DNA of 64,000 bases from Puniceicoccaceae bacterium. Lineage in GTDB: Bacteria > Verrucomicrobiota > Verrucomicrobiia > Opitutales > Coraliomargaritaceae. Below, piece by piece: positions 1-50,428 of the stretch. A program made the translations under genes and the position numbers. The stretch covers positions 1 to 64,000 of the forward strand of contig PBYS01000061.1 in the NCBI GenBank assembly GCA_002729725.1, read 5' to 3'. Position 1 is the stretch's first letter, and each line of letters opens with the position of its first letter. The notes beneath the pieces are model-generated. The model was not told the DNA's origin and searched no databases. It saw only the letters and a list, made by a program, of their open reading frames with translations.

Positions 1-1
1 C

Positions 2-604
2 CGTTTCACGCCAGCACATCACGAGTTGATTAACTCAGCAATTATCGAAGCGGCTACATGCACAAAGGAAGAAGCAAAGGATCTGGACGCAACTGAAGGT
101 AATGACGAAGACCACTCGCCTCCCTCGAACTCTGGCAAACTGTATGTATGACCTGCACACCTGCAGATATAAAATATCCAACCGACTTGGGCTTGCTCAA
201 CGAGGCTCGCTTTACCAGCAACAGCTGCAATGCATACGACGCGCACGCACTCGGTTGAAGATCGCATCGTCAATATCGCGCAGCCGCACGTGCGCCCGAT
301 CGTTCGTGGCAAAGCTGGCTAACGAGTTGAGTTCGGAGCCAAGATATCGATCAGTCACCAAAAAGATGGCTACGTGAGTTTAGATACACTCAGTTGAGAC
401 GCTTATAATGAGAGCGCTGATTTGCCCGCTCAAATCGAAACCTACAAGAAGCGCTTTGGGTATTATCCGCTCAGCGTTCATGCTGACACCATTTATCGCA
501 CTCGCGCGAGTCGCAAATACTGCAAAGAGCGAAACATCCGTCTAAGCGGCAAACCTCTGGGGCGTCCGAAGAAGCCGACCGCCCCGAGTCATATTACTGT
601 ATGA
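2..604 (+). pseudogene. Decayed IS5/IS1182-like DDE transposase remnant
   Basis: Pieces of one transposase can be read in order but in different frames. First comes a segment with the motif KYPTDLGLLNEAR (about 165-205), then DRIVNIAQPHVRPIVRGKAG (about 262-320), then the longest open piece at 422-604 containing ETYKKRFGYYP, VHADTIYRTR and CKERNIRLSG. These blocks are typical, as I recall, of IS5/IS1182-type DDE transposases in which an aspartate follows the VHAD block. Stop codons at about 320 and 399 and frame changes between blocks show that it is not functional. The N-terminus may lie before the window. It marks the left side of a region rich in transposon scars. Exact family assignment is uncertain. 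Confidence 0.75.
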
Positions 605-713
605 GTTACAGAACGCGCGAAGGAACGGCCACTTCAACCGTGGATCAATCCTTCCCTATCATTCGATAGAAGCAATTAAGTCGCAAAGTGTAGGCAAGTC
701 ACATGACATAGCC

Positions 714-3437: not shown

Positions 3438-3599
3438 AAGTAATCTTTCAAAACGGGTAGGTCCCGTAAAACCAACTGTGCTTAGTCATTCAAGCGAGAC
3501 TGCGGCATGACTTAATGTGTTCATCTGCAAAACGCATTCCGAGAGAAGTCATGAACATGAGAAGCACATAATAGCAGAATTTAAAAGACGGTCTATACG

Positions 3600-4062
3600 C
3601 GATAAAGTATTTAATATACACTATTACGCATAACCGTATTCCTCAGTACATGTGCCACTCCTTACCGGGAGAAGTCGACTTTCCCTTTGAATCGCAATGA
3701 CGTTGTAATGCTCTTCTTCGATTTCGTTTTCAAAGTCAGCCCCCATCAGGCTTGGTCGATCGAAGAGAAAAGTAACTGTCCCAGATCTTTTCGTTGACCA
3801 GATAGGACAGGTCGTAGACGTCCAAACCACTGATCACCGCAAAACCGAAGTTCTCCGTCGATCTAAGCGGGATGCGCGGGTTCGCATAGGAGTTGCCGAG
3901 ATGTAGCTCCGGGCACTGCTGTAACGCCCGAGGTTCGCATGCTGCAGCGCGCCGACCAACAGCAACGACTCACGCGGAATGTCAAAAAGCGGCGCGTAAA
4001 CCGCGCCTCCCGTTTTGATATCATTGCCCCAGTATCCATTGAAACGGTCTTCACTTGTGTCA
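3600..4062 (-). pseudogene. Relic of a third VerruA plus DUF gene pair
   Basis: Reading the minus strand down from about 4062 gives DTSEDRFNGYWG, then LFDIPRESLLLVGALQHANL. After a frameshift near 3905 it reads GNSYANPRIPL, VYDLSYLVNEKIWDSYF, then a stop. These match the 1094-residue VerruA protein at 26276-29560 block for block (EDRYNGYWG, FDVPREPLL, GALQHANLGRYSS, NSYANPRIPLDS, DVYDLSYLVNEKLWDSYF). Further down, EEEHYNVIAIQRES resembles VEAERYNVIAIPRD of the DUF protein at 25559-26269, so the relic joins both genes through an internal deletion. The frame-shifted upper part also supplies the artificial C-terminus of the adjacent transposase reading frame. Confidence 0.8.
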
Positions 4063-5104
4063 ATCTGGCAACAGAAAGCCTGCGGGGTGCAACATCCCTC
4101 AACAAGGACGCCCCAGAATTCAATGTATGCGCCGAAGGCTCACCCGCATGATGGGAAGCTTCGACGATTTTCGGATTTAAACCCGAGCACAAACTAACGA
4201 CGCTGCTTGCGACGCGACATGACCAAGGCACCTGCTCAATGACATTCTCCATGTCGGTAATAATACGCTGGATCTGCCCAGGGCTCAGGTCGGTGTTTTC
4301 ACCCAGTTCTTTAAGTCGATTTAAGTGCCTTTGTGCGTGCTGCTTGATACGGTGCAGCAACGCTTTCATTTGCCGCAGAACCTTTTTCCGGTGCTTCTTA
4401 CCTTCGCTAGTGCGATGCTTGGCACTCATAGCCATGCACAAGGTATTCATCTCGCTTAAAAACAATAGAGGAGCTTTGGGCATTCGCACGAGCAGTCCCT
4501 TTTTGCGGATACGATCTACCGCCTTCATCAGCGTGCGAGTGGCATCGCGTAGCAGCACCCAATCCACGGGATGGTGGACGGGGGCCTTTAGGCAAGTGCT
4601 GTCAAAGAAAACCGCATCAAAACGAACAGCGTTTTCCAATCCAAAATCACACTGCGCCCCTTGCTGGAGCATCTCGATCAACTTCACATTCAATTTTTGC
4701 AGCGAATCTGCATCAATAAAGTGGGCGAAGCGATCACTGGTGCTTTTGGCAAACGTGCTCACTCCATCGACACGCCCGACTTGAAGGAACCACTGCAACA
4801 GTGAACTATCGGCTAAGCGGATGCAAAAGTTCCGATGGTTCAGGCCAGTGATCAACCGAGCCAAGTTACTGCGAAGCGCCAATGTGCAACTTCTGCTCAG
4901 CGATTGAACTTCTGCAGCACTGCGAACAGAGAAATCAATCTTACGATACGCCATGCTCAAAATGAAGAACTCACCCTCCAGCCCGCTTTGACTGAGCAGA
5001 TCATCCAAGCGCACGAACAAAGCTCGTTGCTCGTGGTATTCTTTCGGCCCATCCACTAAAGGAAGTTCTGGACGTAGGTCGGGTTGGAAGCTTATCGTCG
5101 GCAT
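3863..5104 (-). pseudogene. Truncated DDE transposase fused to foreign 3' sequence
   Basis: The first roughly 310 residues look like a genuine transposase: a basic, alpha-rich protein with FDAVFFDSTCLKAPVHHPVD (a DDE-type first-aspartate context), then WVLLRDATRTLMKAVDRIR and a Lys/Arg-rich helical stretch. After about residue 315 the protein reads into the frame-shifted VerruA relic, so the catalytic C-terminal half of the transposase is missing. The insertion family is not certain (possibly ISNCY or IS1182-like). An inverted repeat lies about 55 bp upstream of the start and may mark an element end. I infer a truncated element left by recombination between the relic and the insertion sequence; the protein is unlikely to be active. 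Confidence 0.7.
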
Positions 5105-5158
5105 CGTTCGTTTCTATAGTTTTTTGTTCGCACCTAAATTTATAGACAACGAATTTGG

Positions 5159-5188
5159 GGCATGGGAGCCAAATTTGGCTCTTATGCC
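5159..5188. repeat. Inverted repeat upstream of the transposase
   Basis: GAGCCAAATTTGGCTC (5166-5181) is a perfect palindrome, extended by an outer GGCAT/ATGCC pair. It may be an element end or a hairpin terminator protecting the transposase from outside transcription. The 5189-5396 stretch between it and the next gene holds no recognisable gene. Confidence 0.5.
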
Positions 5189-5396
5189 TCTTTTACTTTT
5201 AGACGATTGCTGAGTAGCCCAACGCGATGGCTACATCTGGGACGGGCTCTAAGTAGTCTGACGAAAGCCGCTTACGAACACAGTCTTGCATAAGCTACAG
5301 CTGCCTTATGGGATGGCTGTGGAACAGTTTCTAAGATTGTACCCCGCAGGGGCACCGTGATAACGGAACGCATCACTATGCTTCGATCGAATGACG

Positions 5397-6164
5397 TCAC
5401 TCCCCTCGAAAGCGGACGAGACGATAGCTTTTTTGTCGCTCGTCCGCAACCAACAGAAAGATGTAATACTGATCTTTTAGCACCGTCTGCGAGCCCGAAT
5501 AAACCACTCGCCAATCATCATCGCCCGGACGAATTGCACATTTCAAATTAAGTTGAAAGTCGGACTTGACCGTATCGAGTAAAATGGACTTCGACTGGAA
5601 AGAGCCGAGTTGAAACATCTCGTCCATGGCTCGACACAAAACAGGGACATCACTAACATTCAGAAACAAGGCCATGTTCCTAGTCGTATCTTTCAACTTG
5701 CGATCAAACGGAAAAATTCGCAGTTCGCCTTCCCCACGAAGTATGGCTAGCATCCCGCCAGTCCAACCTTCTGGCAGGGTTACCGTGGCGATAGCGTGTA
5801 AAATTGGCTCGCCCGCATCACTCACTCCAACGGATCGATACAACGAAAACGCGCGTGGTCCATGATACGAAACCTCCTCGGAGCTTTCACCCGGATGAAC
5901 CGCTACTAACTGAGGGAGCCCAGCCTCACTCATTACATAAAACTCAAAGGACGGGCTCGGCCCATGCTCATCCAGATAAGTGAGGCTACGATTCGCATCA
6001 GGCACCCCGACTAAATAAAAACTGATATCAGCCTTAATTTGCGGGGCCACGGTTTCTGTCGGGATCTGCGCCTCAAGGGCGAGACCAAAACCGAGACAAA
6101 CAACTAAGATGAGATACTGAAAACTTCGAACTGTGGAATATGAAGAATACATAACTATAGGCAC
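5397..6164 (-). CDS. Secreted protein of unknown function (VerruA-linked DUF, copy 1)
   Basis: 255 residues with an N-terminal hydrophobic segment (FQYLILVVCLGFGLALEAQ) typical of a signal peptide; the ATG four codons in, at 6152, is an equally good start. The rest looks beta-rich with no catalytic motif that I recognise. It starts only 11 bp after the VerruA gene and so is almost certainly cotranscribed with it. A diverged homologue (236 aa) sits in the same position behind the second VerruA gene; shared features include an N(L/V)SDxPV block, a following DE(I/M)F(K/Q)L block and a closing VVYS/LGYS strand. The conserved pairing suggests a partner or accessory subunit of VerruA. Function unknown. 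Confidence 0.75.
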   Translation of the reverse strand: MPIVMYSSYSTVRSFQYLILVVCLGFGLALEAQIPTETVAPQIKADISFYLVGVPDANRSLTYLDEHGPSPSFEFYVMSEAGLPQLVAVHPGESSEEVSYHGPRAFSLYRSVGVSDAGEPILHAIATVTLPEGWTGGMLAILRGEGELRIFPFDRKLKDTTRNMALFLNVSDVPVLCRAMDEMFQLGSFQSKSILLDTVKSDFQLNLKCAIRPGDDDWRVVYSGSQTVLKDQYYIFLLVADERQKSYRLVRFRGE

Positions 6165-6175
6165 ATCAGTGATGA

Positions 6176-9100
6176 TTAGACTTCATCCGGATCCAACCAA
6201 CGGAAACTTTTAATTGTAAATCGCCGACCAAAGCCCCCCTCGGGATCGCCTGTAACAACATCTTCAAGTCTATCAACCTTCTCAGGCATTCGCTGCACGA
6301 TGGCTTCACACCAGACCTTAACACGCTCGCCGCTCAAAGGGCTTTCAGACTCGCCATACGCACGGATCTTAAACGTATCCGAACGCGCGACTAAGACACT
6401 GCCAATCTTCGACATAATATCAGCTTGCGAGAGATATCCGGGTGCATTGGTTGAAAATGAACCCGCCATAGCATTACGATAATAACCGTAGCTGAACCGC
6501 TCTCCTTTATAAAGATCATTATGGGGATCGTTTTCGCTATACTCATTACTACTGCCACTAAAAAAAGCAGCATTCAAACCAGTCGCATTTATCGCAGCTT
6601 GGAGTGCACCTCGCCGATGCAACGACGACTCGGTATCGGAGTGATAAACGGAACGGTTCACAAAATCAGCCACCGAGATGAACGGACCACGCTTCTTAAC
6701 TTCGACCACAATATTTTCAGCCAATAATCGAATCTCGTCTTTTGTTAATGCACGAAACCCAGAATATGCCTCAGACTCTTCAGGTAATGTTCCAAGACTT
6801 GCATCCATCTCAGCCGTTTGAGGAAAAGGATGCCGAAGCCATGGAGCCTCTGTCTCATACTCGAAATCACCATCAATAGTAGTATCCACGGTCGCACCAA
6901 GGAAAGTCCCCAACAACGACTCCCACGCATCGATCGAAGTCGAATTCACATTAAAAGCCCCATCCACCATCAACTCCTTGGCCGCAAGTGTCATACTATC
7001 CAAATCAACACTCTCTTCTCCGCTGATCGAATAGATGCGACTATTCTTAGAAACCATTGGCGTTAATAATGGATAATCCTCGCGTTCATCTTTCACTGGA
7101 ATTGCAGAAAAGAAATAATCATCCCAAAGCGCAGTATTCAAATTCCATGACATGTCGTAACTGACCATTTCAGGAACATCTGAAGAATATGGCGCTGCAA
7201 CATTTTCAGGATGATCACTATAGGTCTTGTTATAAGTAATGTAAGGCGTCGCATTACTGTTACCGATCGCATACGCGGGTGTAGCATTGCTCCACTTCCA
7301 GTAGTCCACGGCATCGTCCAAGCCCTTTGCCACAGTCAACCGTGCATGCATCAAATCGCCAATCGAACGAATCTCTAGCGGATCACGCGGCAAATGAAAG
7401 AGCACCGCGCTAGTATTATTACTGGTAGCCGCGTCGGTAAAACCAACGAAGGCATTGTTTCCACTAGTGGGCATAGAAATAAAATCCACTGTTGGCTCTT
7501 TATAAAAACCGGACTTCCAAGCTGGATTGTTATTGAATCCAGCTCGTCCCGAATTCAACCGAGCCTCACTCGGCGTCCGCCCACTGTAGGTGGCTGCAGG
7601 ATTCAAATACCCCAACCATTGCACACGCGTATTCTCACTTTCTTCAAGGCGACTTTGGGAAAATTTAAGCCCAGATATAAGTGAAATATTTGGCTTAGTA
7701 TCAGGAATGGGGGCTCCTGCAATGTGAATCTCACTACTTTCGACCACCGCGAAATCTTGGTCAGTGCCACCTCCATAATTAAATCCAGAAATGTAAAGTA
7801 ATGGCTGGTTCTCAAGATTACTAAGCGAATCAGCCATCCTCAAATCCCCTGGAATGCTTCTTTCATCAACGAAACGCTGCTCTCCAAAACCTGCGAGTTT
7901 GTATATGACGGAATCATCATTCCCCATCGAAAACTCACTATTCGGCACACGATACACATAGGAAAAACCTCCTCGATAACCAGGCGTCAAACGCCAACCG
8001 GATGCCCCGTCACTCACGGTTGACACTGGATTTGGGGCTGAAAAAACAACCGCTTCACCAGCCTCCAGATTTCTTCCCAAATCTAAAATAAAAGGAATTC
8101 GACCATAACTGAGTGTCGACAGCCCGCAATCACCCAGACTGTATTTACTTCGGTTCTTGTATGAGGGCGGCTGGTGCTTAGTCGCTCCACCGTCTGTATA
8201 CTTGATCTGATACTTCCAGTTAAGCTGACTAGCAGGATCATCTGAGAGCTTCATATCCACATACCACGGGCTGCCTGCTATTGCCGCATCATAAGGATTC
8301 CACAAGGCAAAGGTCGGTTGAAAATAAAACCACACAGCATATTGACCCGCGGTATCTGGTAGAACGATTACGCTGAGCGAAAGCTGAGCTAAGGTCAGCA
8401 CCGGCGAAATCCCGGCCCGATCCCCGTGCACTGCTTCGGCTTCGTAAATCGCTTCCAAGCCCGCCCCAGCTGTCGTCGGAGTCAAATTAACCCAGCTATG
8501 CAATTGATCCCACAAAGGTCCACCGCTATCGCCGACAATACTCGTTGCCCCAGGGAAAATCGGTTGCCCCTCCAGTAATGGATCGATCTCATTTGGCCGC
8601 AGGCCATTGGTTAAATCACGCTTCAGCCCGCCCCAAAGCGCAGATGTGGCATCATAAGTCGTCTTAGACAGCACTCCAGCGCTCTGATCTGTGACCGCAT
8701 GGTAAATCACTTGACTGAGATCCGGTGTCGCTGGAGCGGTAAAGAAATCAAAATCGCCATTTTGAGTCACACGCTGCATCTTCGACCACTCTGGCGTTTC
8801 AAAAGCAAGGTGTGACATACCATCCATTAACTCCGCCGCCGGACGTTCCGTAGAAAGCACCGCTGCATTGGTTTGAGCGGATCGATGTGCCACGATTTCA
8901 TCCATTGTATAACGCGGGTTCACCTTCGACTTAACGCCTTCATCCAGCACAACCCACGCAAAACCTCCCGTGCCATTTCCATCGCTTCCAATTATCCGAT
9001 TTCGTTCAATGAGCGCCTTGACCGAACCATCCACCAGACGGTCCGCCTCTAGACGGCGATCTTGATACAACCATACATAGTCGTCATTTGTATCTGGATC

Positions 9101-12032: not shown

Positions 12033-13214
12033 CTATTCTACCGGAATACTAACCTCCTGAGGCTTACCGAACTTTTCAGATAACTTGGCGCTCAGCCTTG
12101 GAATCAACCGAGGGATTTTGATTTGGCCACTCGCGACCATTCCTGCACCACCACAAGATTCGCGCACCACTAATGGTAAACTCTCAATCTCTCCTTGCTG
12201 GACTGGCGTGCGCAATGCCAAAGCCAGAGCCCCCCGCAACATACGCGTTGCAATAAAATCAAAATCCTGCGCGACCGTCGTCAACGGCGGGTCACTGTAA
12301 CGACTCCCTTCAGTATCGTTGTTTCCAATAATACGATAGTCCTTAGGCGCAGACAACCCAAGCTTATGCATCGAAGTCATAAATCGCAGCGCATGCTCAT
12401 CATCGTAACTGATGATACCAATGGGCGAAGCCTCCTTCGCCCATTCTTCTGCTAAACGGTCCATGGATGCGGCATCCGAATCAACCAGCTGGCAAACACT
12501 CGGAATACCTCGCGTCGCACAATAGAACGAAAAGGCTCCGACTTTATTTTCTAAAAAGCCATTTTCCGGATCTTTCGGCCCGAGAAGAGCCAGCTTCGTC
12601 GCCCCGACTTGCAGCAAGTATTGACAGATGGACTCAATAATCTGCCGCAAACTCAAAGCACTCTGCGGCGTCCTAGGCAACACCAAAGCAGTTCCAAAAC
12701 CTGGATACAATTGCGGATGCGAAAGTGGAAAACTGGTCGATTCTACGAGGTCTTCGACATCATAGATACTCGACGGCGGAAACCAAGGAATAACCGCAGC
12801 CAAGCACCCCATTTCCTCAAAACGACTGAGTTCGGATTTTGCAGTATTACCGTAATCATCGACCCAAGAGGGAACCATCGTCAGATCCATCCCACTCGCC
12901 ACATTTGAGATCGATTGCATCAAACGATAGGAATACGCATCGCTCTTGGATGACATCAACAAGCCAACCTTGTTGACCCCCATCGCCGCATCCGCACATG
13001 GCTTTGCCACAAAAGTGCCACTACCTGCTTTGCGTATGATAATACCTTCATCAACAAGGCGCTGCAGTGCTTTTCTCACAGTCAGAAAATTCACCCCCAT
13101 CGATTGAGCTAAATCACGCTCGGAAGGCAAACGAGCCCCAACAGGCAAAGTAGCGGCTAAGCGCTTCACTCCTTCCTCAATCCGTTCATGCTTTAGGGCC
13201 TTTGTCTTTAACAT
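12033..13214 (-). CDS. GntR-type regulator with LacI-like sugar-sensing domain
   Basis: Transcription factor with an N-terminal winged helix of the GntR class (RLPSERDLAQSMGVNFLTVRKALQRLVDEGIIIRKAGSGTFV) and a C-terminal periplasmic-binding-protein-like domain of the LacI kind (YRLMQSISNVASG, IIGNNDTEGSRYSDPPLTTVAQD). This domain order is that of AraR-like GntR/LacI hybrids that release DNA on binding a sugar. I prefer the ATG at 13214 because the 12 residues before it (from 13250) do not fit the family. It lies between the minus-strand binding protein/GH5/VerruA row and the divergent plus-strand GH5 gene, and probably controls both. Palindromes in the divergent gap are candidate operators. 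Confidence 0.88.
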   Translation of the reverse strand: MLKTKALKHERIEEGVKRLAATLPVGARLPSERDLAQSMGVNFLTVRKALQRLVDEGIIIRKAGSGTFVAKPCADAAMGVNKVGLLMSSKSDAYSYRLMQSISNVASGMDLTMVPSWVDDYGNTAKSELSRFEEMGCLAAVIPWFPPSSIYDVEDLVESTSFPLSHPQLYPGFGTALVLPRTPQSALSLRQIIESICQYLLQVGATKLALLGPKDPENGFLENKVGAFSFYCATRGIPSVCQLVDSDAASMDRLAEEWAKEASPIGIISYDDEHALRFMTSMHKLGLSAPKDYRIIGNNDTEGSRYSDPPLTTVAQDFDFIATRMLRGALALALRTPVQQGEIESLPLVVRESCGGAGMVASGQIKIPRLIPRLSAKLSEKFGKPQEVSIPVE

Positions 13215-13294
13215 ACCCACAGTAAAAAAGCATCTCATCGACTCTGTCAATAAAGCAGTTGATAATTAAGAAACACAACTGAACACTAATAATC

Positions 13295-13426: not shown

Positions 13427-13444
13427 CCCCCCCCAAAAAAAAAA
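13427..13444. repeat. C8-A10 homopolymer junction in the GH5 5' region
   Basis: Eight C are followed by ten A, 102 bp before the GH5 start and downstream of the candidate operators. Such runs are prone to slippage and could change promoter spacing or leader length. No direct evidence of a function. Confidence 0.6.
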
Positions 13445-13546: not shown

Positions 13547-15808
13547 ATGAATAAGCACCACCTCAGATATCTCACGATATTCCTAACACTGGTAACTGCT
13601 ATTTTCGCCAACCAGCCACCACACCTAATTGGCATCAACCTATCCGGAGCCGAAAACGGCAGCCGTGGTGCAACTTACGGAAGCGACTACATCTACCCAA
13701 GCGCCACGGATTTCGGCTATTACAAATCTAGAGGCCTCGAACTCGTTCGCCTCCCTTTTAAATGGGAGCACATGCAGCCCACTCTTTATGGCGCACTCAA
13801 CTCCGCCGAACTCGCTAGGCTCGACGCAACCATCGACCTCGCAGAAAAGCATGGCATGCTCGTCATACCGGATCTCCATAATTACGGACGCTACGATGGC
13901 AATATCGTCGGCACCACCGCAGTGCCCCGGAGCGCTTTCGCAGATTTCTGGAGCAGACTCGCAGCTCACCTCGAAAATCGCGACTGCATATGGGGCCTAG
14001 GCATCATGAATGAGCCACACGACATGGGAAGCTACACTTGGCTCGATTCAGCCCAAGATGCAGTCGATGCTATCCGCTCAGTGAACACACGACACGCGAT
14101 CATCATACCCGGCAACTCATGGAGCTCTGGCGCAAAATGGCTAACCGCCAGCTCAAGCCTAATCAATATCATCGACCCAGAGGATAACCTGGTTTTCGAA
14201 GCTCATCAATACCTCGGTAAAGATTCTGACGGAGTCTACTCCCTCAGTTACGAAGGTGAAGGCGGCACGCCCACGATAGGCGTAGATCGCCTGACAAATT
14301 TTGTCGATTGGTGCAACTCCAACAACGTCCGCGGACTCATCGGCGAAATCGGCGTGCCCGACAACGACCCGCGCTGGATCACCGCGCTCGACAACACCAT
14401 CGCCTACCTCGACGCCAACAACATTAGTGTCACTTACTGGCTCGGAGGCCACAAATTCAACTCTCTTAACGCACTCAGCATCGACCTGAGCCCACAACAT
14501 AAAGAGCGACCACAAATGACCGACTCTATCGGTAATTACGCCCAAGACATCGGCACAAACTACTGGCCACGCTTCTACTGGTATAAAGATGCGATTGCAA
14601 CCGTCCCTGGGCAAGCCAGCAGCTATTATTCTTTCCAATCGAGTTCACCCGCAGCCACCGTCACCTTAACCCCCTATGACACAACTCGGAAATACGGCTC
14701 CCGAAGCACCCGCTTCAACTTCACGATTCCATCCGGAGGCGGTTATGGAGGCGGCGGCTACTATATTTCAGACGGCATTAACTTAGCCGACAGCTTTAAT
14801 CGCGACCACCATATGATCATGTGGATACGCGGCAGCTATGGCTCTGCGCTAAAAATCAAGATGGTCGCAATGAACAATACAACCAGCGCCGCGGTCAGCA
14901 CCTCTACGTATCAAACATACGACTTGGGCGGTGACTGGCAACGCATCTCGATCCCACTCTCGGATTTTATTGATGCCGACTTCGATGGCAACTCCGAGGT
15001 GCATACGATTAAATTCGATTGCTATCCGCGCAACGGCAACAACTACACATTTCGCTTCGATGACCTGATCTTCGATGCTCCTTACACCAACCAAGCACCG
15101 ACCATCACACTCGACAGCCCTAGCGCAGGTAATGTCTATGCCGGCCAAGACATCACGCTCAGCGCTACCGCCAGCGATGATGGCACAATTGACTATGTCG
15201 AATTCCTCGCGGATGGCCAAGCAGTCGGCTACGCAACCGCAGCTCCCTACGAATACACCATCAGCTTCGACGACGTCGGCACCAGTAATCTAACCGCCAT
15301 CGCATTCGATAACTACGGCGAGCCGACACGTTCAGCCGTGACTACAGTAAACATCCTCCCAGGCTACGGCCCGGAACTCGTCCCCAACGGAGGCTTCGAA
15401 GAAGGTGACACGTGGGACGGCAACCATACTATCGTCAGCGCAGAAAGCGTCAGCGGTAGCTACTCTCTTCGTCACGACACAGGATCCTATGACGCAGGCC
15501 GTAAACGCATCAGCACGGGCATTACAGCCGGAAAAACTTACAAGGTTGAAGGCTGGATCAAAGCAGATGCCACTCTATCGGGCCCAGTTCGTATCTACGT
15601 GAAGTGGCAAACCGCGAGCAACCAAACGATCTCGCAAGGCACTCTGAACAGTCATTATGTTTACCCTGGAGCCGACTGGACACTCATCTCAACAGATAGC
15701 GCTGGCGCTCCCCCTGGAGCAGCTAAACTATATATTTTTCTCAAAGGCGACAACCGAACCGGCGGCTATGCCTACTTCGACGACATCAGCGTTAAAGAAA
15801 AACTTTAA
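13547..15808 (+). CDS. Secreted multi-domain GH5 endoglycanase
   Basis: 753 residues with a signal peptide (LTIFLTLVTAIFA). Residues 24-320 form a GH5 barrel: LIGINLSGAE, LVRLPFKWE near 67-74, VIPDLHNYGRY near 106, GIMNEPHDM with acid/base E156, FEAHQYL near 218 and LIGEIGVPD with nucleophile E267. Residues about 335-510 look like a CBM11-like beta-sandwich ending in FRFDDLIFD. Residues about 512-600 are a bacterial Ig-like domain (NQAPTITLDSPSAG). Residues 605-753 form a CBM4/9-like module (GPELVPNGGFEEG through YFDDISVKE). Probable secreted endo-beta-glucanase or mannanase. First gene of a plus-strand set with the two genes behind it, transcribed away from the GntR-type regulator. Confidence 0.9.
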   Translation: MNKHHLRYLTIFLTLVTAIFANQPPHLIGINLSGAENGSRGATYGSDYIYPSATDFGYYKSRGLELVRLPFKWEHMQPTLYGALNSAELARLDATIDLAEKHGMLVIPDLHNYGRYDGNIVGTTAVPRSAFADFWSRLAAHLENRDCIWGLGIMNEPHDMGSYTWLDSAQDAVDAIRSVNTRHAIIIPGNSWSSGAKWLTASSSLINIIDPEDNLVFEAHQYLGKDSDGVYSLSYEGEGGTPTIGVDRLTNFVDWCNSNNVRGLIGEIGVPDNDPRWITALDNTIAYLDANNISVTYWLGGHKFNSLNALSIDLSPQHKERPQMTDSIGNYAQDIGTNYWPRFYWYKDAIATVPGQASSYYSFQSSSPAATVTLTPYDTTRKYGSRSTRFNFTIPSGGGYGGGGYYISDGINLADSFNRDHHMIMWIRGSYGSALKIKMVAMNNTTSAAVSTSTYQTYDLGGDWQRISIPLSDFIDADFDGNSEVHTIKFDCYPRNGNNYTFRFDDLIFDAPYTNQAPTITLDSPSAGNVYAGQDITLSATASDDGTIDYVEFLADGQAVGYATAAPYEYTISFDDVGTSNLTAIAFDNYGEPTRSAVTTVNILPGYGPELVPNGGFEEGDTWDGNHTIVSAESVSGSYSLRHDTGSYDAGRKRISTGITAGKTYKVEGWIKADATLSGPVRIYVKWQTASNQTISQGTLNSHYVYPGADWTLISTDSAGAPPGAAKLYIFLKGDNRTGGYAYFDDISVKEKL

Positions 15809-40885: not shown

Positions 40886-40943
40886 ATGAAAAGGAGTACT
40901 TGCATTCAGCGAACAAGCTGTTTTCTTCACCCTCTTTCAAAGA

Positions 40944-41029
<86 letters not shown>

Positions 41030-41293: not shown

Positions 41294-42604
41294 ATGAACA
41301 AAAAAGACCTCAGCGAACGCGACATCTGCACCAAGTTCATTACGCCTAGTATCCAAACGGCGGGATGGGATATCGCTAATCAAGTGCGCGAAGAAGTCGG
41401 CTTCACCGATGGTCGCATCTACGTAAGAGGAAAACTCCATACCCGCGGCGCACAAAAACGCGCGGACTACATTCTTTACTACAAGCCCAATATCCCCATC
41501 GCCGTGATTGAGGCGAAAGACAACAAACATAGTGTCGGCGCGGGCATCCAACAAGCGCTCGGCTATGCCAAGACTCTAGAAATCCCTTTCGTTTTCAGTA
41601 GTAACGGCGACGGCTTCATCTTTCACGACCGCACCGTTACTTCCGGCGACATCGAATCTGAGCTGGACCTAAATTCATTCCCATCGCCCGAAGTGCTCTG
41701 GGAGAAATATAAAGCCTACAAAGGAATCTCCGAAGCGGCCGCGCCGATTGTCTCCCAGGAATATTTCGCTGACGGCTCGGGGCGCTCTCCTCGCTACTAC
41801 CAACAAATCGCCATCAACCGCACCGTTGAAGCCATTGCCAAAGACGAAGGCGACCACCGCCATCTCCTCGTCATGGCGACCGGAACGGGCAAGACCTACG
41901 TCGCCTTCCAGCTCATCTACCGTCTCTGGAAAAGCGGAATCAAATTCCTCGCCCCCTACAAGGTCATCAAGGTCACCCTCGACATCGACGCCGAGGGCTG
42001 GCGGCCCCCAAAAGGCTTCAAGGACAAAGACGGCCAAGAAGTCGAAGACCGCATCTATAATCGCACCGATTTCGACAAACACATCATCGTCGAAGAGCGC
42101 CGCCAACTCGTCGCCCAAAAGATCACCGAGAGCCTGCGCGACTACACCCGCAAGAACGTTCGCACCAACTACACCTCGCTCGACTCCTTCCTCAGCTCAT
42201 GGCGCGACGCCGACAAAAAACGCGCTATCGTCGAGGAGCTCGAACAGCATGGCGTCATCTTCGCCGCCTTGCAGGATGAGGTCGGTTCCGCCTTCGATCC
42301 CTTCGACCTCATTTGCCACGTCGCCTTCGAGCAGAAACCACTCACCCGCAAAGAACGAGCCGACAACGTAAAGAAGCGCAACTACTTCACCAAGTATGGC
42401 GACCTCGCCCGCACCGTCCTCGATAGCCTGCTCGATAAATATGCCGACGACGGCCTGCTGGATCTAGAGAACCCCGCCATCATTACGCTCGATCCGATCA
42501 AACGCCTCGGCACCGCCCCCGAGATTGTTCGTGCCTTCGGAGGCAAGCCAGCATACGACCAAGCCATCCACGAACTCACGGCATACCTATACGAGAGCGC
42601 CTAA
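41294..42604 (+). CDS. hsdR: Internally deleted type I restriction subunit (HsdR-like, 436 aa)
   Basis: Type I R subunits of this kind usually have about 750 or more residues. The nuclease is kept: ADYILYYKPNIPIAVIEAKD with D58, E73 and K75. The Walker A motif ATGTGKT is at 195-201. Then the protein jumps from LIYRLWKSGIK (near 217) to FLAPYKVIKV, losing the DEAD/DECH-box region, and near 280 jumps again from AQKITE into SLRDYTRKNVRTNY, losing the second helicase domain. The C-terminal domain (EQKPLTRKERADNVKKRNYF onward) is normal. Both deletions keep the frame. DNA translocation and cleavage should be impossible; nuclease or DNA binding alone could persist. First gene of hsdR-rloA-rloB-hsdM-hsdS. 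A reduced, still functional role is only speculation. Confidence 0.85.
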   Translation: MNKKDLSERDICTKFITPSIQTAGWDIANQVREEVGFTDGRIYVRGKLHTRGAQKRADYILYYKPNIPIAVIEAKDNKHSVGAGIQQALGYAKTLEIPFVFSSNGDGFIFHDRTVTSGDIESELDLNSFPSPEVLWEKYKAYKGISEAAAPIVSQEYFADGSGRSPRYYQQIAINRTVEAIAKDEGDHRHLLVMATGTGKTYVAFQLIYRLWKSGIKFLAPYKVIKVTLDIDAEGWRPPKGFKDKDGQEVEDRIYNRTDFDKHIIVEERRQLVAQKITESLRDYTRKNVRTNYTSLDSFLSSWRDADKKRAIVEELEQHGVIFAALQDEVGSAFDPFDLICHVAFEQKPLTRKERADNVKKRNYFTKYGDLARTVLDSLLDKYADDGLLDLENPAIITLDPIKRLGTAPEIVRAFGGKPAYDQAIHELTAYLYESA

Positions 42605-42725: not shown

Positions 42726-44015
42726 ATGCTATCTTCATTCTTCATTCGCAATTTCCGTTCAATTTTAGAACTACATTTGGATTTTACCTTTGAAGAAGGC
42801 AAGGCGCCCAATGGCTATAAGGAATTTGAAGTCATGCCCTTCCTCGAAGCAGCTAACAAACAGCGCCTAGTGCCCTGCATGGGACTTTTCGGAGCAAACG
42901 CAGCAGGCAAAACGAATATTCTTAAGGGCGTAGACACAGTGAAAAGGCTCTTGATCGAGGACTCTAGCTTGATCGACCTGTATGAACCGAATCTGCTAAA
43001 TCCCAAGTTTACCGAAACCACCTTTGAAATAGTCTTCATTATTGGAAGCGATACATACTCTTATCGCATTACCTACTCTAGTCTTGCGATTTCAGAAGAG
43101 CGTTTGACGAAAAATGGAGCTGCCGTCTTCAATATACAGAAACTCAAGCCACAGTTTTCTTCAGCAATACAGTCCGCAACCTACTCGAAGGAAAAACTTT
43201 CCGACATCTTACATGTTGAGTGTAGCGATGGCGATGGTCATCAGACAAAGCCTTTCCTCCGTTGTATCGGTAAGTCATACCCTGGGTTACATCAGGACAC
43301 GAAAGCCCCTTACCGCTATTTTCAAAATGGTATCAACTTTATAATAAATGATGACCCCATGCTACTCCCGATTGCGGTTGATATTCTAGCAAGTGTGATG
43401 GGAGGCGATCAAGCTGCTGCCCTAGATGCAATCACTGACGTAGTTCGCCGAGCCGACATCGAAATTGCTGCAATTAATATTTCAGAAACCGAACTCGGCC
43501 CCGATGAACAGCCGAGCAATGGTGAACTACTCAAGAGGAGCGGTAAAAACGGCCCCCGTCACACCATCAGCATCACAGCCACGCACAAGGATATCTCCGA
43601 CAACCCGGTTCTGCTACATTTCAGAAAGCACGAGTCCGATGGGACACAACGTCTAGCTGGTTTAGTGGGATTGATTCTGTATGCACTCAAAACCGGTGGC
43701 GTCTTCCTTGTTGATGAATTAGAATGCTCGCTTCACCCTCTACTCATGCGCGAAGTCGTGCTGCTGTTTAAAAAGCGCCGACATAATCCAAGAGGTGCTC
43801 AACTCATTTTTACGACACACAACACAGACATTCTCGACGACTCGATACTTCGCCTGTCAGAAATTGTTTTAACTCGTAAGACAATCGCGAACGGCACACT
43901 CGTGCGGCGCTTAATAGACGCCAAAAAAGAGGGTGAAGACATCCGCAACGTCACTAACTTTCGCAAACAATATCTTGCCGGGTTCTACTCTGGTGTGCCA
44001 CACCCAGCTCTTTAA
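42726..44015 (+). CDS. RloA/AbiL-type AAA+ ATPase
   Basis: 429-residue SMC/ABC-like ATPase of the AAA_21 kind. MLSSFFIRNFRSILELHLDF is the usual N-terminal strand, Walker A is GANAAGKT at 56-63, Walker B is GGVFLVDELECSLHP and the His switch is IFTTHNTDIL. LLHFRKHESDGTQRLAGLVGLI matches the signature region. Such ATPases form two-gene defence modules with a Toprim/RloB-like partner, which follows after 8 bp. RloA/RloB were first named as restriction-linked genes in type I loci, exactly the position seen here. Predicted role: phage defence by an abortive mechanism. Unlike the flanking hsd genes this one looks intact. Confidence 0.85.
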   Translation: MLSSFFIRNFRSILELHLDFTFEEGKAPNGYKEFEVMPFLEAANKQRLVPCMGLFGANAAGKTNILKGVDTVKRLLIEDSSLIDLYEPNLLNPKFTETTFEIVFIIGSDTYSYRITYSSLAISEERLTKNGAAVFNIQKLKPQFSSAIQSATYSKEKLSDILHVECSDGDGHQTKPFLRCIGKSYPGLHQDTKAPYRYFQNGINFIINDDPMLLPIAVDILASVMGGDQAAALDAITDVVRRADIEIAAINISETELGPDEQPSNGELLKRSGKNGPRHTISITATHKDISDNPVLLHFRKHESDGTQRLAGLVGLILYALKTGGVFLVDELECSLHPLLMREVVLLFKKRRHNPRGAQLIFTTHNTDILDDSILRLSEIVLTRKTIANGTLVRRLIDAKKEGEDIRNVTNFRKQYLAGFYSGVPHPAL

Positions 44016-44023
44016 TTTAGCCA

Positions 44024-44680
44024 ATGCCCACCGTTCGCCATATCATCGTTTGTGAAGGAGAGTCTGAATGGGCTTACCTACAACGATTACAAGCATTTAT
44101 AGAGGATCAAGAAGTTCCCCCGAATTGCTTTGAGGCACCTCTTCGCTTTATCAGTCCAGTGTCGGCAATCGCCAAAACTGGTTCGTTCGGAAAAATAAAG
44201 ACGACCTACAATAAGACCCGAAAAACCAACGGCAAGCGCTGTTCCATCCAAGTCTGGACAGACTTCGATCTGTATCATCGCAATGATAACCACTGTGCCG
44301 AACACTATGCCCAAAAAACCGCAGGCATTCCAGACTTCCTCTTCTCCTTCCACAACTTTGAGGATTTTTATGCACTCCATTTCGATGGTGCGACCTTAAA
44401 TGAGTGGCGGGACTATGGAGGGCCAGGCGGCCGTCGTCATTTCACTGCGCCTCTCCATGCCCGAGATTATAAGTCTGAGATGGAACGCATTTTCCCAGGA
44501 TACAAAAAAGGCGGACTCCCACCAGATTTTGTTTCCAAGGCATCACTACAGAACCTGAAAAATAACCTCCACCTACAGCCCGAATCCACCCCTCACAACC
44601 TGCAGGACGTCAATAGCTTCGCAGCTTTCTTGATTCGTCAAATTGAGCAAGCATACCCCACAATGCTCTCATCAGAATAA
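44024..44680 (+). CDS. RloB-like (Toprim-type) partner protein
   Basis: 218 residues. The N-terminus HIIVCEGESEWAYLQRL carries the glutamate of a Toprim-like fold. VWTDFDLY supplies an Asp pair, and SFHNFEDFYALHFD corresponds to the SNPCFExWLLLHF-like block of RloB. Known relatives pair with AAA ATPases in defence systems (RloA/RloB, AbiL; PARIS is analogous), where the Toprim-like protein is thought to be the nuclease effector. The 8-bp spacing to the ATPase gene supports a joint role. Full length and undamaged as far as can be seen. Confidence 0.8.
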   Translation: MPTVRHIIVCEGESEWAYLQRLQAFIEDQEVPPNCFEAPLRFISPVSAIAKTGSFGKIKTTYNKTRKTNGKRCSIQVWTDFDLYHRNDNHCAEHYAQKTAGIPDFLFSFHNFEDFYALHFDGATLNEWRDYGGPGGRRHFTAPLHARDYKSEMERIFPGYKKGGLPPDFVSKASLQNLKNNLHLQPESTPHNLQDVNSFAAFLIRQIEQAYPTMLSSE

Positions 44681-44768
44681 AATCTCATTTGCCAATTTCA
44701 CTTGAGATTGGCCTCAACGCCAAGCCCATCTGACACAGTCCTTACTTCGAACTTCCCACCTCTTTTAA

Positions 44769-46207
44769 ATGCCCAACATCTCATCGATCGTCAAAAACGT
44801 CCGCAACATCATGGGAACGAAGACCAAGGAATCTCTGGCGACGCCCAGCGCCTCGAACAGCTCGGCTGGATGCTCTTTCTCAAGATCCTCGATGAGAAGG
44901 ATCAGGAGCTTGAACTCATCCGCGAGAACTACAACTCCGTCATCCCAGAAAAGTTCCAATGGCGCACCTGGGCAACCGATCCCGAGGGCATCACGGGCGA
45001 TGAACTGCTAAGCTTCATCGACCATCCCACCGACGGCCTATTTGCCCACCTGAAACAGCTGCAGTCGACCAAAGCACCCAAGCGCGCCGCCATCGTGCGC
45101 GAGGTCTTTGATGGCTTGAACAACTACATGAAGTCCGGCTTCGCCATGCGCAAAGTCATCAACCAGCTCAACGGCTTCGACTTCAACAACTCCGAAGACC
45201 GCCACATCTTCGGCACCATTTACGAGTCCATTCTGATCGAGTTGCGCGATGCCGGCAACAAGGGCGAATACTACACGCCGCGTGCCATCACCCAGCTGAT
45301 GACACAGATGACCGCGCCCAAGCTTGGCGAAACAGTGCTCGACCCCGCAGCGGGCACCGGCGGATTCCTCAGCGCCGCCATCGACTATGTCCGCGATAAA
45401 TCAGAGAAAACATTGTCCAATGAGGCCACTCTCCAGCAATCCATCACTGGCTGGGAATACAAGCCCGTCGCCTACGTGCTCGGCCTGACCAATCTCATTC
45501 TACACGGCATCGACGTGCCCGACTACCACTATCAGGACAGCCTCAAGGTGGAATACAACGGCATCGGCCCCAAGCAGCAGGTGAACTGCATTCTAGCCAA
45601 TCCGCCCTTCGGTGCGGGCATCGCCGACGGCGTCGAGACCAACTTCCCCGCCTCCTTCCGCTGCAAAGAATCCGCCGACCTCTTCGTGATCCTCATGATC
45701 CAGCTGCTCAAAGCCAATGGCCGCTGCGCCATCGTCCTGCCAGACGGCTGTATCACCGGCGACGGCTACAAAGAGCGCATCCGTGAAAAGCTCCTGGCCG
45801 ACTGCAACCTCCACACCATCGTCCACCTCCCGCAGAGCACCTTCCACCCAGCAACCGTTTCCACCAACCTGCTCTTCTTTACAAAAGGCAGCCCAACCAA
45901 AGAAATTTGGTATTACGAGCACCGCCTGCCCGCAGGCCAAAAGAGCGACTCCAATACCAAAGTCATCCAGTTCGATGAATTCGCGCCCATGATCGAATGG
46001 TGGGACAAACGCGAGGAAAACGAAGTCGCTTGCAAGGTGAAAGTCGAAGACTTGAAAGACGGCTTTGATTTGGATGTGAAGAATCCAACCAGTTCCGAAG
46101 TCGAAGAAACCTTGAGTGTTAAAAAATGCCTCTCCGAACTTCGAAAATCCCTTGGCAAAGTTGAAACTGCGCTCAAGGCTGTCGAAACCGAATATACTGG
46201 AAAATAG
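44769..46207 (+). pseudogene. hsdM: Type I DNA methyltransferase subunit with N-terminal frameshift
   Basis: The expected start MPNISSIVKNVRNIM is at 44769, but the frame changes at about 44812-44818 to continue as NEDQGISGDAQRLEQLGWML. One missing base near ATCATGGGAACG would explain it. The remaining protein is normal: N-terminal helical domain, SAM-binding DPAAGTGGFLSAA, catalytic NPPF in CILANPPFGAG, and the C-terminal region ending with KVETALKAVETEYTGK. An alternative upstream start at 44702 keeps the main frame open but replaces the conserved N-terminus with junk. Either the gene is damaged or this is a sequencing error. The stop codon directly touches the hsdS start. Confidence 0.8.
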
Positions 46208-47400
46208 ATGAAACGTATCGGTGATATTCTAACCCGCTACAAAGTAGCAGAAACTGTCAAAGATGACGTGACCTACAAACAGGTCACCATCGGAACTAAC
46301 TACAAAGGCGTCCGTCTGCGAGGAACCAAGCCGGGCATTGAGATCGGCACTAAAAATCAATGGTTAGTCAAAGCGGGCCAATTCATCCTTAGCCGAATCG
46401 ACGCACGAAATAGTGCTTTTGGAATTATCCCCGACGACTTGGAAGGCGCTCTCGTGACGAACGATTTCATGGCCTACGAAGTCAATGAAGACGAAGTGGA
46501 TCGTGATTTCTTCAACGTCTTCCTTCAATCTCCGCAGTTTCTTGAAGCTTGCATCAAAGCGAGTCGTGGCAACACCAACAGGAAACGAGTTCAGGAAGAG
46601 TTTTTTCTGAACTACGAAGTCAACCTCCCCGACATCGAGCATCAGCGACTTTTGATCCAGAAGATCGAACGAGCCAAGGCAGCGATGGCCACCGCCGAAA
46701 GTGAAATCGCCCACCAGCAATCCCTGCTCGGCAAGCTCAAGCAAGCCATCCTGCAAGAAGCGATTCAGGGCAAACTGACTGCGCAATGGCGCGCCGCAAA
46801 CCCGGTAGGCGACCTGTCCACCGAAGCCTCGGCGAAGGTGGAACCCGCCAGCCAGCTGCTCCAACGCATCCAAGCCGAAAAAGTCCGGCTCATCGCCGAA
46901 AAAAAAAAATCCGTAAAGTAAAACCCCTTCCCGAAATCACCCCCGAAGAAATCCCCTTCGAGATTCCGGAGGGATGGGAGTGGTGCAGGTTGGGTGACCT
47001 TACCAAGTTCGTAACGAGTGGATCGCGAGGCTGGAAGGCCTACTACGCGAATCAAGGATCCCTCTTTATCCGAGCTCAGAATATCAAAACCGACCTCTTG
47101 GATCTATCGCAGACGGCATTCGTTAAACTCCCCGATAAAATGGAGGGCCAGAGAACTCGCGTTCAACCTGACGACATTTTAGTCACAATCACGGGAGGGA
47201 ACTGTGGAAAAACCGCGCGAGTCGATCAGCAACTCGATGAAGCATATGTCAGTCAACACATCGCTCTAACTCGACTAATGGAGACAGAACTTTCAGTATG
47301 GATACATCGTTGTTTGACCACAGATAGCGGCCCCCGCGGAGTTCTGCTCAGCTATTCAAAAATGGTAAAGTGCGAACATCCTATACGCTTAATGACTTGA
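46208..47400 (+). pseudogene. hsdS: Type I specificity subunit split at an A11 tract and 3'-truncated
   Basis: The first half (237 aa) holds target-recognition domain 1 (ILTRYKVAETV through FFLNYEVNLPDIEHQRLLIQ) and the helical spacer SEIAHQQSLLGKLKQAILQE. It ends at a stop just after the run of 11 A (46899-46909). One more A (or two fewer) would join it to the second half: IRKVKPLPEITPEEIPFEIP, then TRD2 with GWEWCRLGDLTKFVTSGSRGW and GPRGVLLSYSK. TRD2 stops at 47400 before the usual conserved closing part, so the 3' end is lost too. Known HsdS proteins determine the DNA sequence recognised by M and R; a half subunit can sometimes dimerise. Confidence 0.8.
46899..46909 (+). repeat. A11 mononucleotide run inside hsdS
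   Basis: Eleven A in a row in the linker between the two recognition halves. The current length puts a stop 12 bases downstream; A12 or A9 would restore the frame into the second half. The sequence is a plausible slippage switch. Confidence 0.85.
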
Positions 47401-47551
47401 GAACCGCAAACGACTAAATCCCAAAGAGAAGTTTCAAGTTGCCTTCCGCCTCCCAAAGAAATCGGAGGCAGAGATTAAAGATTTAGAACATGTCGAACGG
47501 ATTCATGGCGCCATGCGTTATGGATTATTAGAGCATCGTTATTTTATTTAA
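47388..47551 (+). pseudogene. Unidentified 3' gene fragment
   Basis: An open frame without start codon reads NRKRLNPKEKFQVAFRLPKK, then EAEIKDLEHVERIHGAMRYG and ends with a stop at 47551. It looks like the end of a small protein gene cut by the same event that truncated hsdS. I do not recognise it. The rest of the stretch to 47929 contains only short unconvincing frames and the kinase promoter region. Confidence 0.4.
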
Positions 47552-47929
47552 TTCAAAATCGCCATTTTGGCGACTGTCTGTATTGGCGTAAATCAATGTA
47601 AATTAACGGTTAAAAAAGATACACCTCTGTCGACTGCCGAATTTAGGATGATGAAAAATTCGCGACACTCACAAACTCAAAAGCGGTTTGCAATTTCACT
47701 CAAGCTCGCGGAAGCCAACCTAGATAAACCACAAGCTATTAATATTCAGCATAATAACAAACCCCAACTCATCATAAATCGTTCAAGTTAAACTTAGTTC
47801 AGAACGACTAAGCTGATAAACTGACAGGCCCCATCCTCAGTGCATGCAGTGAATTACAGACATTGCCAGTAACGCTATCAACCGTGGTGAATCTTGACCT
47901 AATCACCATTATCAAATGAGATAAACACA

Positions 47930-50428
47930 ATGGCATCGCCTAATACTACAAACCTAGAGATCCGCTCAAAAACAAGTCGACTGCCTTTTGTACTGTGTAG
48001 TTCGCTCTTCCTACTGCTGGCCATCTTTTCAGTCGCATCGGTCATTAAGAAAGCGGACCTGAGAATGCGCAGTGCGCTGATGGTTTCCGCAGAATTAGTC
48101 GCGAAGGGCCTTTCTCAGTCTGAAATACGTGATTTGGTTGAGGGCAGCTCTGAACAGCAACAAAAAGCAGCTGCCCAGATACAGGAACAGCTTTCCAGGC
48201 AAATTTTGGCTTCGGACCGTTTTCACTACATCTACATCATGAACCGTGATGCAGCAGGCGAAATTTACTTCTTGGTGGATGCTCAGCGCCCTGAAGAAGC
48301 GACGCCACCTTCTGCTTTTGGTGAACCTTATCCAGAGGCCTCCGCAAAGCTAAAAGGAATCTTCGATGAGAAAACGGCATTCCTAGAAGGCCCCTTAGAA
48401 GATCGCTGGGGCACCTGGATCAGTCCGATCACACCACTGTTAGATCCAGACACGGATCAGGTGATGGCTGCACTTGGAATCGATATCTCGGCCAAGGGTT
48501 GGTATCTCTACCTACTCGGAGTCGCGGCGCTCCCGACATTACTGTTCGTTTCGTTGGCACTGATGGGGCTTTCTCTGCGGCGCAGCCGATTACACCGCGC
48601 AGCTCAAAAGCAAAAGAACGATGAATTTCAGTATAAAGATCTGTTCCTGCAGCTTCTGATTCGGACTTCTCTAGAATACATTAACCGGCCATGGGTTTCA
48701 ATTGATGAGACCATAGAAGAATCCCTCGGTGAAATCGGCCGTTTCACCAAAGTGGATCGGGCCTATATTTTTCGGTATAACCTCGACGAAGCAACCGCCA
48801 CGAATACTCACGAATGGTGCGCCCCCGGAATCTCTGCAGAGATCGACCAGCTCCAGTCTGTCAAATTATCCGATCTACCGAACTGGTTAGAAACCCACCA
48901 GAAGGGGCAAGCCGTTGAAATTCCCGACGTGATGGCACTCCCGGGTGACAACGCGGAGCGTAAAATACTCGCTCCCCAGAATATAGTGAGCTTAATCACG
49001 GTACCACTGATGAACGAAAACGAATGTATCGGATTCGTCGGCTTCGATGCAGTCAAGCAAGCACATCAATACTCTAGCGACGAGCGACAACTACTAATAG
49101 TATTCGCGGAGATGGTTGTCAACGTGAGCAATCGCCGAAAAACTGATCTAGCACTTCAAGAATCGAACAAGAAACTCGCACAGCAAACACAACTAGCCCA
49201 ACAAATGGCAGAGGAGGCACAACAGGCCGACCGAGCCAAAAGTGCATTTCTAGCAGCAATGAGTCATGAAATCCGCACGCCACTCAATGCGGTCATCGGC
49301 ATGACTTCTTTGCTGATGAATACAGAGTTAGACGAGCAGCAGTCTGATTATACGTCCACCATTAACGTAAGTGGCAACGCGCTCTTGAGTTTAATTAACG
49401 ACATCCTCGATTTTTCCAAAATCGAAGCTGGGCGCCTCGAGCTACACGAAGAGGTATTTCAAATTGATGACTGCATCCTTCCCCCGGTGGAAATAATGAG
49501 GAACTCGGCCCATGCGAAGAATATTCAGTTACAAGCCAGCACCGCAAACAAGACACCCAAGCACTTAAAGGGCGATATTGGCCGTATCCGACAAATCGTA
49601 ATTAACTTGCTGAGTAATGCGATTCGCTTTTCTAACAAGGGAGACAAGGTCACCATAAATGTAAGTTCAGAACACTTGAGTGAGACAGAAATAAAACTGA
49701 CCATCCAAGTCACCGACACAGGAATCGGAATATCTGATGAGGCGCAAAAAAACCTCTTCAAAGCGTTCATTCAAGCCGACAGCTCGATCACTCGAACACA
49801 TGGAGGCACCGGCCTGGGCTTGGCAATCAGTCGTCAATTGGCGCGCTTGATGAACGGCGACTTATCCTGCCAAAGCAAGATCAACGAAGGTGCGATCTTT
49901 AAGCTCGAAATCCCCTTATCTGTCGTAAGCCCACATGGCACAAAAAAAACTCCCTCACGGAGTCAAGCAAGCCCCCTCCCCGCTTCAGCTCAGCCGCTCA
50001 AAACGAAAGAAAAAAAGAAGCCATACCATATAAATAAAGACCTATCAAAAGAGTGTCCTTTAAGCATCTTAATCGTCGAAGACAATCTAACCAATCAGAA
50101 GATAATGAGCCATACCCTCAAGCGCATGGGATATCTGACTGACATTGCAGAGAATGGGAAGTTAGCAATCGATGCGGTCGCGGCAAAGAATTATGATCTG
50201 GTTCTGATGGATATCGAAATGCCAATGATGGATGGCATCACTGCGACGCGTGAAATACGCCGCAATGGCTACAGCCACACCCCCATCATTATTGCACTGA
50301 CTGCTCACGTGATTGACGAACAACGCAAACAGTGCTTCGAGCATGGCATGAACGACTTCTTGTCAAAACCGATCAAGATTCCCGATCTGACCCGCGTCAT
50401 TATTAAAACTTCACGCGGCGAATACTAA
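47930..50428 (+). CDS. Membrane hybrid sensor histidine kinase with GAF and receiver domains
   Basis: 832 residues. Transmembrane helix at about 19-40 (LPFVLCSSLFLLLAIFSVAS), periplasmic sensor to about 185, second helix at about 188-210 (LYLLGVAALPTLLFVSLAL), GAF domain about 250-400 (EESLGEIGRFTKVDRAYIF), short coiled coil, then the DHp domain with phosphorylated H446 in SHEIRTPLNAVIGM. HATPase motifs: NLLSNAIRFS, DTGIGIS, GGTGLGLAISR. Receiver domain from about 700 (SILIVEDNLTNQKIM) with phospho-acceptor D761 in LMDIEMPMMDG. All catalytic motifs are present. No partner regulator is adjacent, so output is probably via the internal receiver or a remote phosphorelay. Signal unknown. Confidence 0.92.
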   Translation: MASPNTTNLEIRSKTSRLPFVLCSSLFLLLAIFSVASVIKKADLRMRSALMVSAELVAKGLSQSEIRDLVEGSSEQQQKAAAQIQEQLSRQILASDRFHYIYIMNRDAAGEIYFLVDAQRPEEATPPSAFGEPYPEASAKLKGIFDEKTAFLEGPLEDRWGTWISPITPLLDPDTDQVMAALGIDISAKGWYLYLLGVAALPTLLFVSLALMGLSLRRSRLHRAAQKQKNDEFQYKDLFLQLLIRTSLEYINRPWVSIDETIEESLGEIGRFTKVDRAYIFRYNLDEATATNTHEWCAPGISAEIDQLQSVKLSDLPNWLETHQKGQAVEIPDVMALPGDNAERKILAPQNIVSLITVPLMNENECIGFVGFDAVKQAHQYSSDERQLLIVFAEMVVNVSNRRKTDLALQESNKKLAQQTQLAQQMAEEAQQADRAKSAFLAAMSHEIRTPLNAVIGMTSLLMNTELDEQQSDYTSTINVSGNALLSLINDILDFSKIEAGRLELHEEVFQIDDCILPPVEIMRNSAHAKNIQLQASTANKTPKHLKGDIGRIRQIVINLLSNAIRFSNKGDKVTINVSSEHLSETEIKLTIQVTDTGIGISDEAQKNLFKAFIQADSSITRTHGGTGLGLAISRQLARLMNGDLSCQSKINEGAIFKLEIPLSVVSPHGTKKTPSRSQASPLPASAQPLKTKEKKKPYHINKDLSKECPLSILIVEDNLTNQKIMSHTLKRMGYLTDIAENGKLAIDAVAAKNYDLVLMDIEMPMMDGITATREIRRNGYSHTPIIIALTAHVIDEQRKQCFEHGMNDFLSKPIKIPDLTRVIIKTSRGEY

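Follow-up and report, generated by a model that had tools for sequence, protein, structure and literature searches.

The locus lies in a 64-kb stretch of DNA (64,000 nucleotides, called the window below) and consists of an operon in which hsdR, an AbiLi/AbiLii-like gene pair, hsdM and hsdS follow one another in that order. The features on which the argument depends are these:

40945..41029, plus strand: tRNA-Leu (caa), just upstream of the operon
41294..42604, plus strand: hsdR, 436 aa; two internal stretches deleted in frame (junctions near 41944 and near 42118)
42726..44015, plus strand: AAA ATPase, AbiLi-like, inside the operon, an open frame with profile matches
44024..44680, plus strand: RloB/AbiLii-like partner, an open frame with profile matches
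44702..46207, plus strand: hsdM with an open body; its natural start, ATG 44769, lies out of frame, one base being lost near 44813
46208..46921, plus strand: first half of hsdS, 237 aa, with the first recognition domain and the central conserved helix; matches Methylase_S
46805..46834, plus strand: 30 bases inserted in frame into the hsdS linker and lacking in the five nearest relatives; they overlap a dispersed palindromic repeat at 46817-46842
46899..46909, plus strand: A11 tract in the Lys-rich linker that separates the HsdS recognition halves
46910..47400, plus strand: hsdS second half, in another frame; matches specificity-subunit profiles and the relative L106

The A11 tract, read directly, sits exactly between the recognition halves of HsdS, as the sequence-only reading had placed it. 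No other single-base run in the window is as long, among 19 of at least 7. The expectation for exactly A11 in 64 kb, under a first-order model of the window, is 0.087 runs, and approximately 0.13 runs of 11 or more follow from the figures of that model. Across the 4.7-Mb assembly we counted 25 A/T runs of at least 9 (38 overlapping 9-mer matches, merged), and only two reach 11: the tract in hsdS and an A15 at positions 5329-5343 of contig 13, which lies inside no open reading frame of at least 80 codons. The hsdS tract is unusual for its genome and locally rare. Runs of at least 9 were absent from the other hsdS loci fetched from this genome, in which there are 19 Methylase_S matches in total. 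The second-longest run of the window, an A10 at 13435-13444, directly follows a C8; the combined stretch (13427-13444) is located between divergent genes at 12033-13250 (minus strand) and 13547-15808 (plus strand), and is possibly a promoter-length tract.

Computed reading frames agree with the expectation that A11 gives a half subunit and A12 or A9 a joined protein. With A11, HsdS is halted right after the tract at 237 aa; with A12 or A9 the two halves are joined, in 397 and 396 aa respectively, and with A8, A10 or A13 translation stops at 235-236 aa. As in an NgoAV-type system, a homopolymer between the recognition halves sets the half or the joined reading. The half itself also has the NgoAV-type content, in that alignment, structural model and Foldseek place the complete first recognition domain and the central conserved region within its 237 aa. 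Its AlphaFold2 model, built from a five-row alignment, reached a pLDDT of 79.8 and a pTM of 0.58 and features a 55-residue helix; the best Foldseek matches were the S subunits 7vru, 3okg and 5ybb, and EcoKI S ranked first in a profile search. At the sequence level the half is 67-69% identical to its counterparts in two Akkermansiaceae relatives, L020 and L021. Taken together, these results make the first half plausible as a module.

The second half is less well preserved at its end. Its best relative, L106, matches at 49% over 130 residues, and the second recognition domain aligns up to 47352, where homology ends. Past this point the adjacent frame encodes SYTLNDLRT, which we equated by eye with GLNLTNLRE of L106, and then a stop; as we read the sequence, this is a second frameshift in hsdS, near 47352-47370. 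The distal conserved region is missing and the 3' end is lost, in agreement with the truncation stated in the sequence-only reading. Joined readings run to 47400 and still lack the distal conserved region. Since the second frameshift and the truncation remove this region, no tract length yields a whole HsdS: the longest products, of 396-397 aa, fall short of the complete two-domain subunit of an NgoAV-type switch, and no single chain unites the two recognition domains with the two conserved regions in the manner of Type IB.

The 30-base insertion in the linker fits relaxed constraint, although an insertion might be tolerable in a linker in any case. The palindromic repeat at 46817-46842 (TCCACCGAAGCCTCGGCGAAGGTGGA) is in frame within the linker and missing in the five nearest relatives. 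Copies with at most three mismatches were present in 8 other genomes of the 56 searched (genus, family and order), and its reversed control gave zero copies in the same search. A further dispersed repeat, of about 130 bases, lies just downstream of hsdS at 47524-47658; it has two more copies in the same genome (80-81%), one of them next to a different hsdS, on contig 99; of 55 other genomes searched, 4 hold weaker copies. A DNA search with 46180-47980 for a replacement 3' half or a second hsdS copy elsewhere returned only this repeat of about 130 bases, on two other contigs. Recombinational switching by inverted repeats was rejected, as the sole pair found (40917-40937 and 43926-43946) is not placed around hsdS. 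We recognised no insertion sequence that would have severed the 3' end, and the two short open reading frames examined there, at 47402-47551 and 47567-47788, have no Pfam match.

Lesions are not confined to hsdS. The hsdM genes of L122-L126, the five relatives closest by DNA, all (5/5) start with MPNI(S/A)SIIKNVRNIMR and continue in the same frame into the body, and the hsdM start of L020 is likewise in frame. Relative to these, the window hsdM that starts at 44769 lacks one base near 44813, within a mixed, non-homopolymer stretch, and enters another frame. The body can be reached only from TTG 44702 or 44708, which gives an unrelated N-terminus, or from ATG 44870, which removes the N-terminus. 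The intact hsdM that accompanies an NgoAV-type half is thus not provided by the natural start, while rescue from a TTG is conceivable. In hsdR, comparison with L023 reveals losses of about 135 and about 217 residues, both clean and in frame; GTGKT is still present, the DECH box has been lost together with much of the remaining motor, and the complete HsdR motor domain of a Type IB system is therefore lacking. The protein still scores 547.9 bits, in three stretches, against NF046051, the NCBIfam EcoAI/FtnUII family, just below the cut-off of 550. On this match, two bits under the cut-off, we regard the system as Type IB-like, EcoAI being classed as Type IB (PMC3874165).

The genes flanking the operon have long open frames, and the adjoining aldose epimerase and histidine kinase match their families over full domains; so far as our survey reaches, the damage is therefore clustered in the hsd genes. 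The AbiLi/AbiLii-like pair at 42726-44680 (AAA ATPase and RloB-like protein) looks intact between the broken hsdR and hsdM, and may be the part of the operon still under selection.

Among 103 alignments of relatives that span the hsdS linker, a set which includes weak matches, A runs at the site reach 8 at most, and no linker (0/103) is split there. They comprise 58 of 71 alignments from 35 genome-contig loci (33 spanned) and 45 of 46 from 29 phylum loci (28 spanned); the remaining 13 of 71 and 1 of 46 break before or after the site and were set aside, and a split relative could hide among them. The 35 genome-contig loci have no run of at least 9 within 900 bases of the hsdS match. One relative, L029, has a stop just beyond the linker, with no A run. 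The five nearest relatives by DNA, one of which (G375) is also among the 29 phylum loci, have linker A runs of at most 6 and read IA(A/T)KKL(R/K) or IVTKKLK; they align gap-free with IAEKKIRK, the A9 reading, while A12 would insert an extra lysine. We consider it likely, from these alignments, that an A9 encoding E-K-K-I was ancestral and was then extended to A11. The nearest hsdM and hsdS sequences, which share the linker motif, belong to the EcoAI-like operons L020, L122, L123, L124, L125 and L126. Searches for copies of the locus in 13 genomes of the same genus, and for a close relative with the same locus by which the lesions might be dated, found none. Plasmid relatives amounted to 11 records, and the five among the matches listed hit hsdM only (approximately 65%). 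The L021 operon (1-6200, from an Akkermansia muciniphila MAG) is damaged too: its hsdM is split between frames, its hsdS has a stop, and its hsdR has a stop and in-frame gaps that include the Walker A stretch. This damage may reflect either independent decay or errors in the MAG.

We consider it probable that the tract arose by slippage while a Type IB-like (EcoAI-like) operon was decaying, and that it is not a maintained switch. The conserved linker that follows the central helix of HsdS (E-K-K-I/L-R/K-K) would by chance have been coded GAA AAA AAA ATC, and hence as A9; replication slippage would have lengthened A9 to A11, and A11 would then have halted HsdS after its first recognition half. 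Separate lesions would have accumulated in the same operon, namely the frameshift at the hsdM start, the two hsdR deletions, and the second frameshift and 3' loss in hsdS, and it is their spread across one operon that points to a mutational hotspot in a gene free of selection. Direct observation covers the tract, its reading frames, the damage to the genes and the lack of such a tract in the relatives examined; we infer the step from A9 to A11, the order of events and the loss of function. Some observations count against decay. The remaining frames (hsdR of 436 aa, the hsdM body and the hsdS halves) are without nonsense codons, and this, together with the in-frame character of both hsdR deletions, suggests that decay is recent or that some part is still used. 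Furthermore, the module formed by the first hsdS half is complete, and its type is the one that functions in NgoAV. The in-frame gaps in the hsdR of L021 are a further point against this reading.

The suggestion that the tract acts as an on/off switch of HsdS is for the most part unsupported, since the joined HsdS is incomplete, hsdM and hsdR are damaged, and the relatives examined have no long tract. The precedents invoked for it do hold. In NgoAV of N. gonorrhoeae, a polyG frameshift is described as leaving a 208-aa HsdS1, and the loss of one G as fusing the halves and changing specificity (PMC9577141), so that slippage in such tracts does alter Type I systems. Half subunits forming a symmetric specificity are likewise documented, for the dimerising residues 1-215 of EcoR124I (PMC2877798). 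By analogy, two 237-aa HsdS and two HsdM, the latter translated from TTG 44702 or 44708, might methylate a symmetric bipartite site which slippage would alter or abolish. The architecture is that of NgoAV and of the EcoR124I fragment in those accounts, the first domain and the central helix are contained in full in the 237 aa, and neither the hsdM body nor the half subunit contains a stop codon. We nevertheless regard this as improbable, given that the natural hsdM start is out of frame, that the fused HsdS is incomplete whatever the tract length, that the tract and arrangement occur in none of the relatives examined, and that a 2013 review records S homodimers in Type IC alone (PMC3874165), whereas HsdR here is EcoAI-like and thus Type IB.

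Slippage need not be mutational. With transcriptional (or ribosomal) slippage on A11, a single allele could supply the half subunit as well as the joined one. Any A11 will probably slip to some extent; tracts of 9A and longer are described as slippage-prone and avoided in many bacteria, where slippage can restore disrupted open reading frames (PMC1088944), and A/T runs of at least 11 are, as noted, very rare in this genome. However, the joined product remains incomplete, and a selected use of such slippage predicts a conserved tract, for which the relatives examined give no sign; this explanation is accordingly very doubtful. The length of the tract might also be an artefact of sequencing or assembly, the true run being A9 or A12. 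Homopolymer lengths are error-prone under some sequencing methods, and the A9 reading agrees with the relatives. The hsdR deletions, the base lost from a mixed stretch of hsdM and the loss of the hsdS 3' end are, however, not homopolymer errors, and the flanking genes are open. We judge such an error unlikely, by a little more than we do a functional half subunit, and the conclusion of decay would stand regardless.

Homopolymer switching in hsdS is already published, and a non-exhaustive literature search found no polyA Type IB case of it. The locus cautions against taking every homopolymer in a restriction-modification gene for a phase-variation switch, since here both the damage to hsdM and hsdR and the linkers of relatives argue for decay. 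The conserved Lys-rich linker of HsdS is itself a plausible hotspot, because the chance choice of AAA codons makes a slippery run exactly between the recognition halves. There is a very slim chance that the operon is a living orphan Type IB-like methyltransferase, in which HsdM from TTG and a 237-aa homodimer recognise an interrupted palindrome under modulation by DNA or RNA slippage on A11. If true, an S homodimer would exist in a Type I family for which, according to the 2013 review (PMC3874165), none had been reported.

Compared with known systems, the operon departs from the intact EcoAI-like operons (L020, L122-L126), which have joined linkers and an in-frame hsdM start and of which it has neither. 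Simple repeats are stated to occur in almost 10% of Type I systems (PMC7394358), and NgoAV, as described, is the closest parallel: in both, a homopolymer ends a half hsdS by frameshift after the first recognition domain and central region, and a change in its length fuses the halves. NgoAV alone has polyG, an active fused form, a working methyltransferase and a Type IC affiliation, whereas the window operon has polyA, a Type IB-like HsdR, an incomplete fused form, and damaged hsdM and hsdR. A stand-alone first recognition domain with its central conserved region is also shared with EcoR124I(delta50), EcoR124INT and EcoDXXI(deltaC) (PMC3874165, PMC2877798); these are, in the published accounts, laboratory or engineered Type IC forms that act with an intact HsdM and without tract switching.
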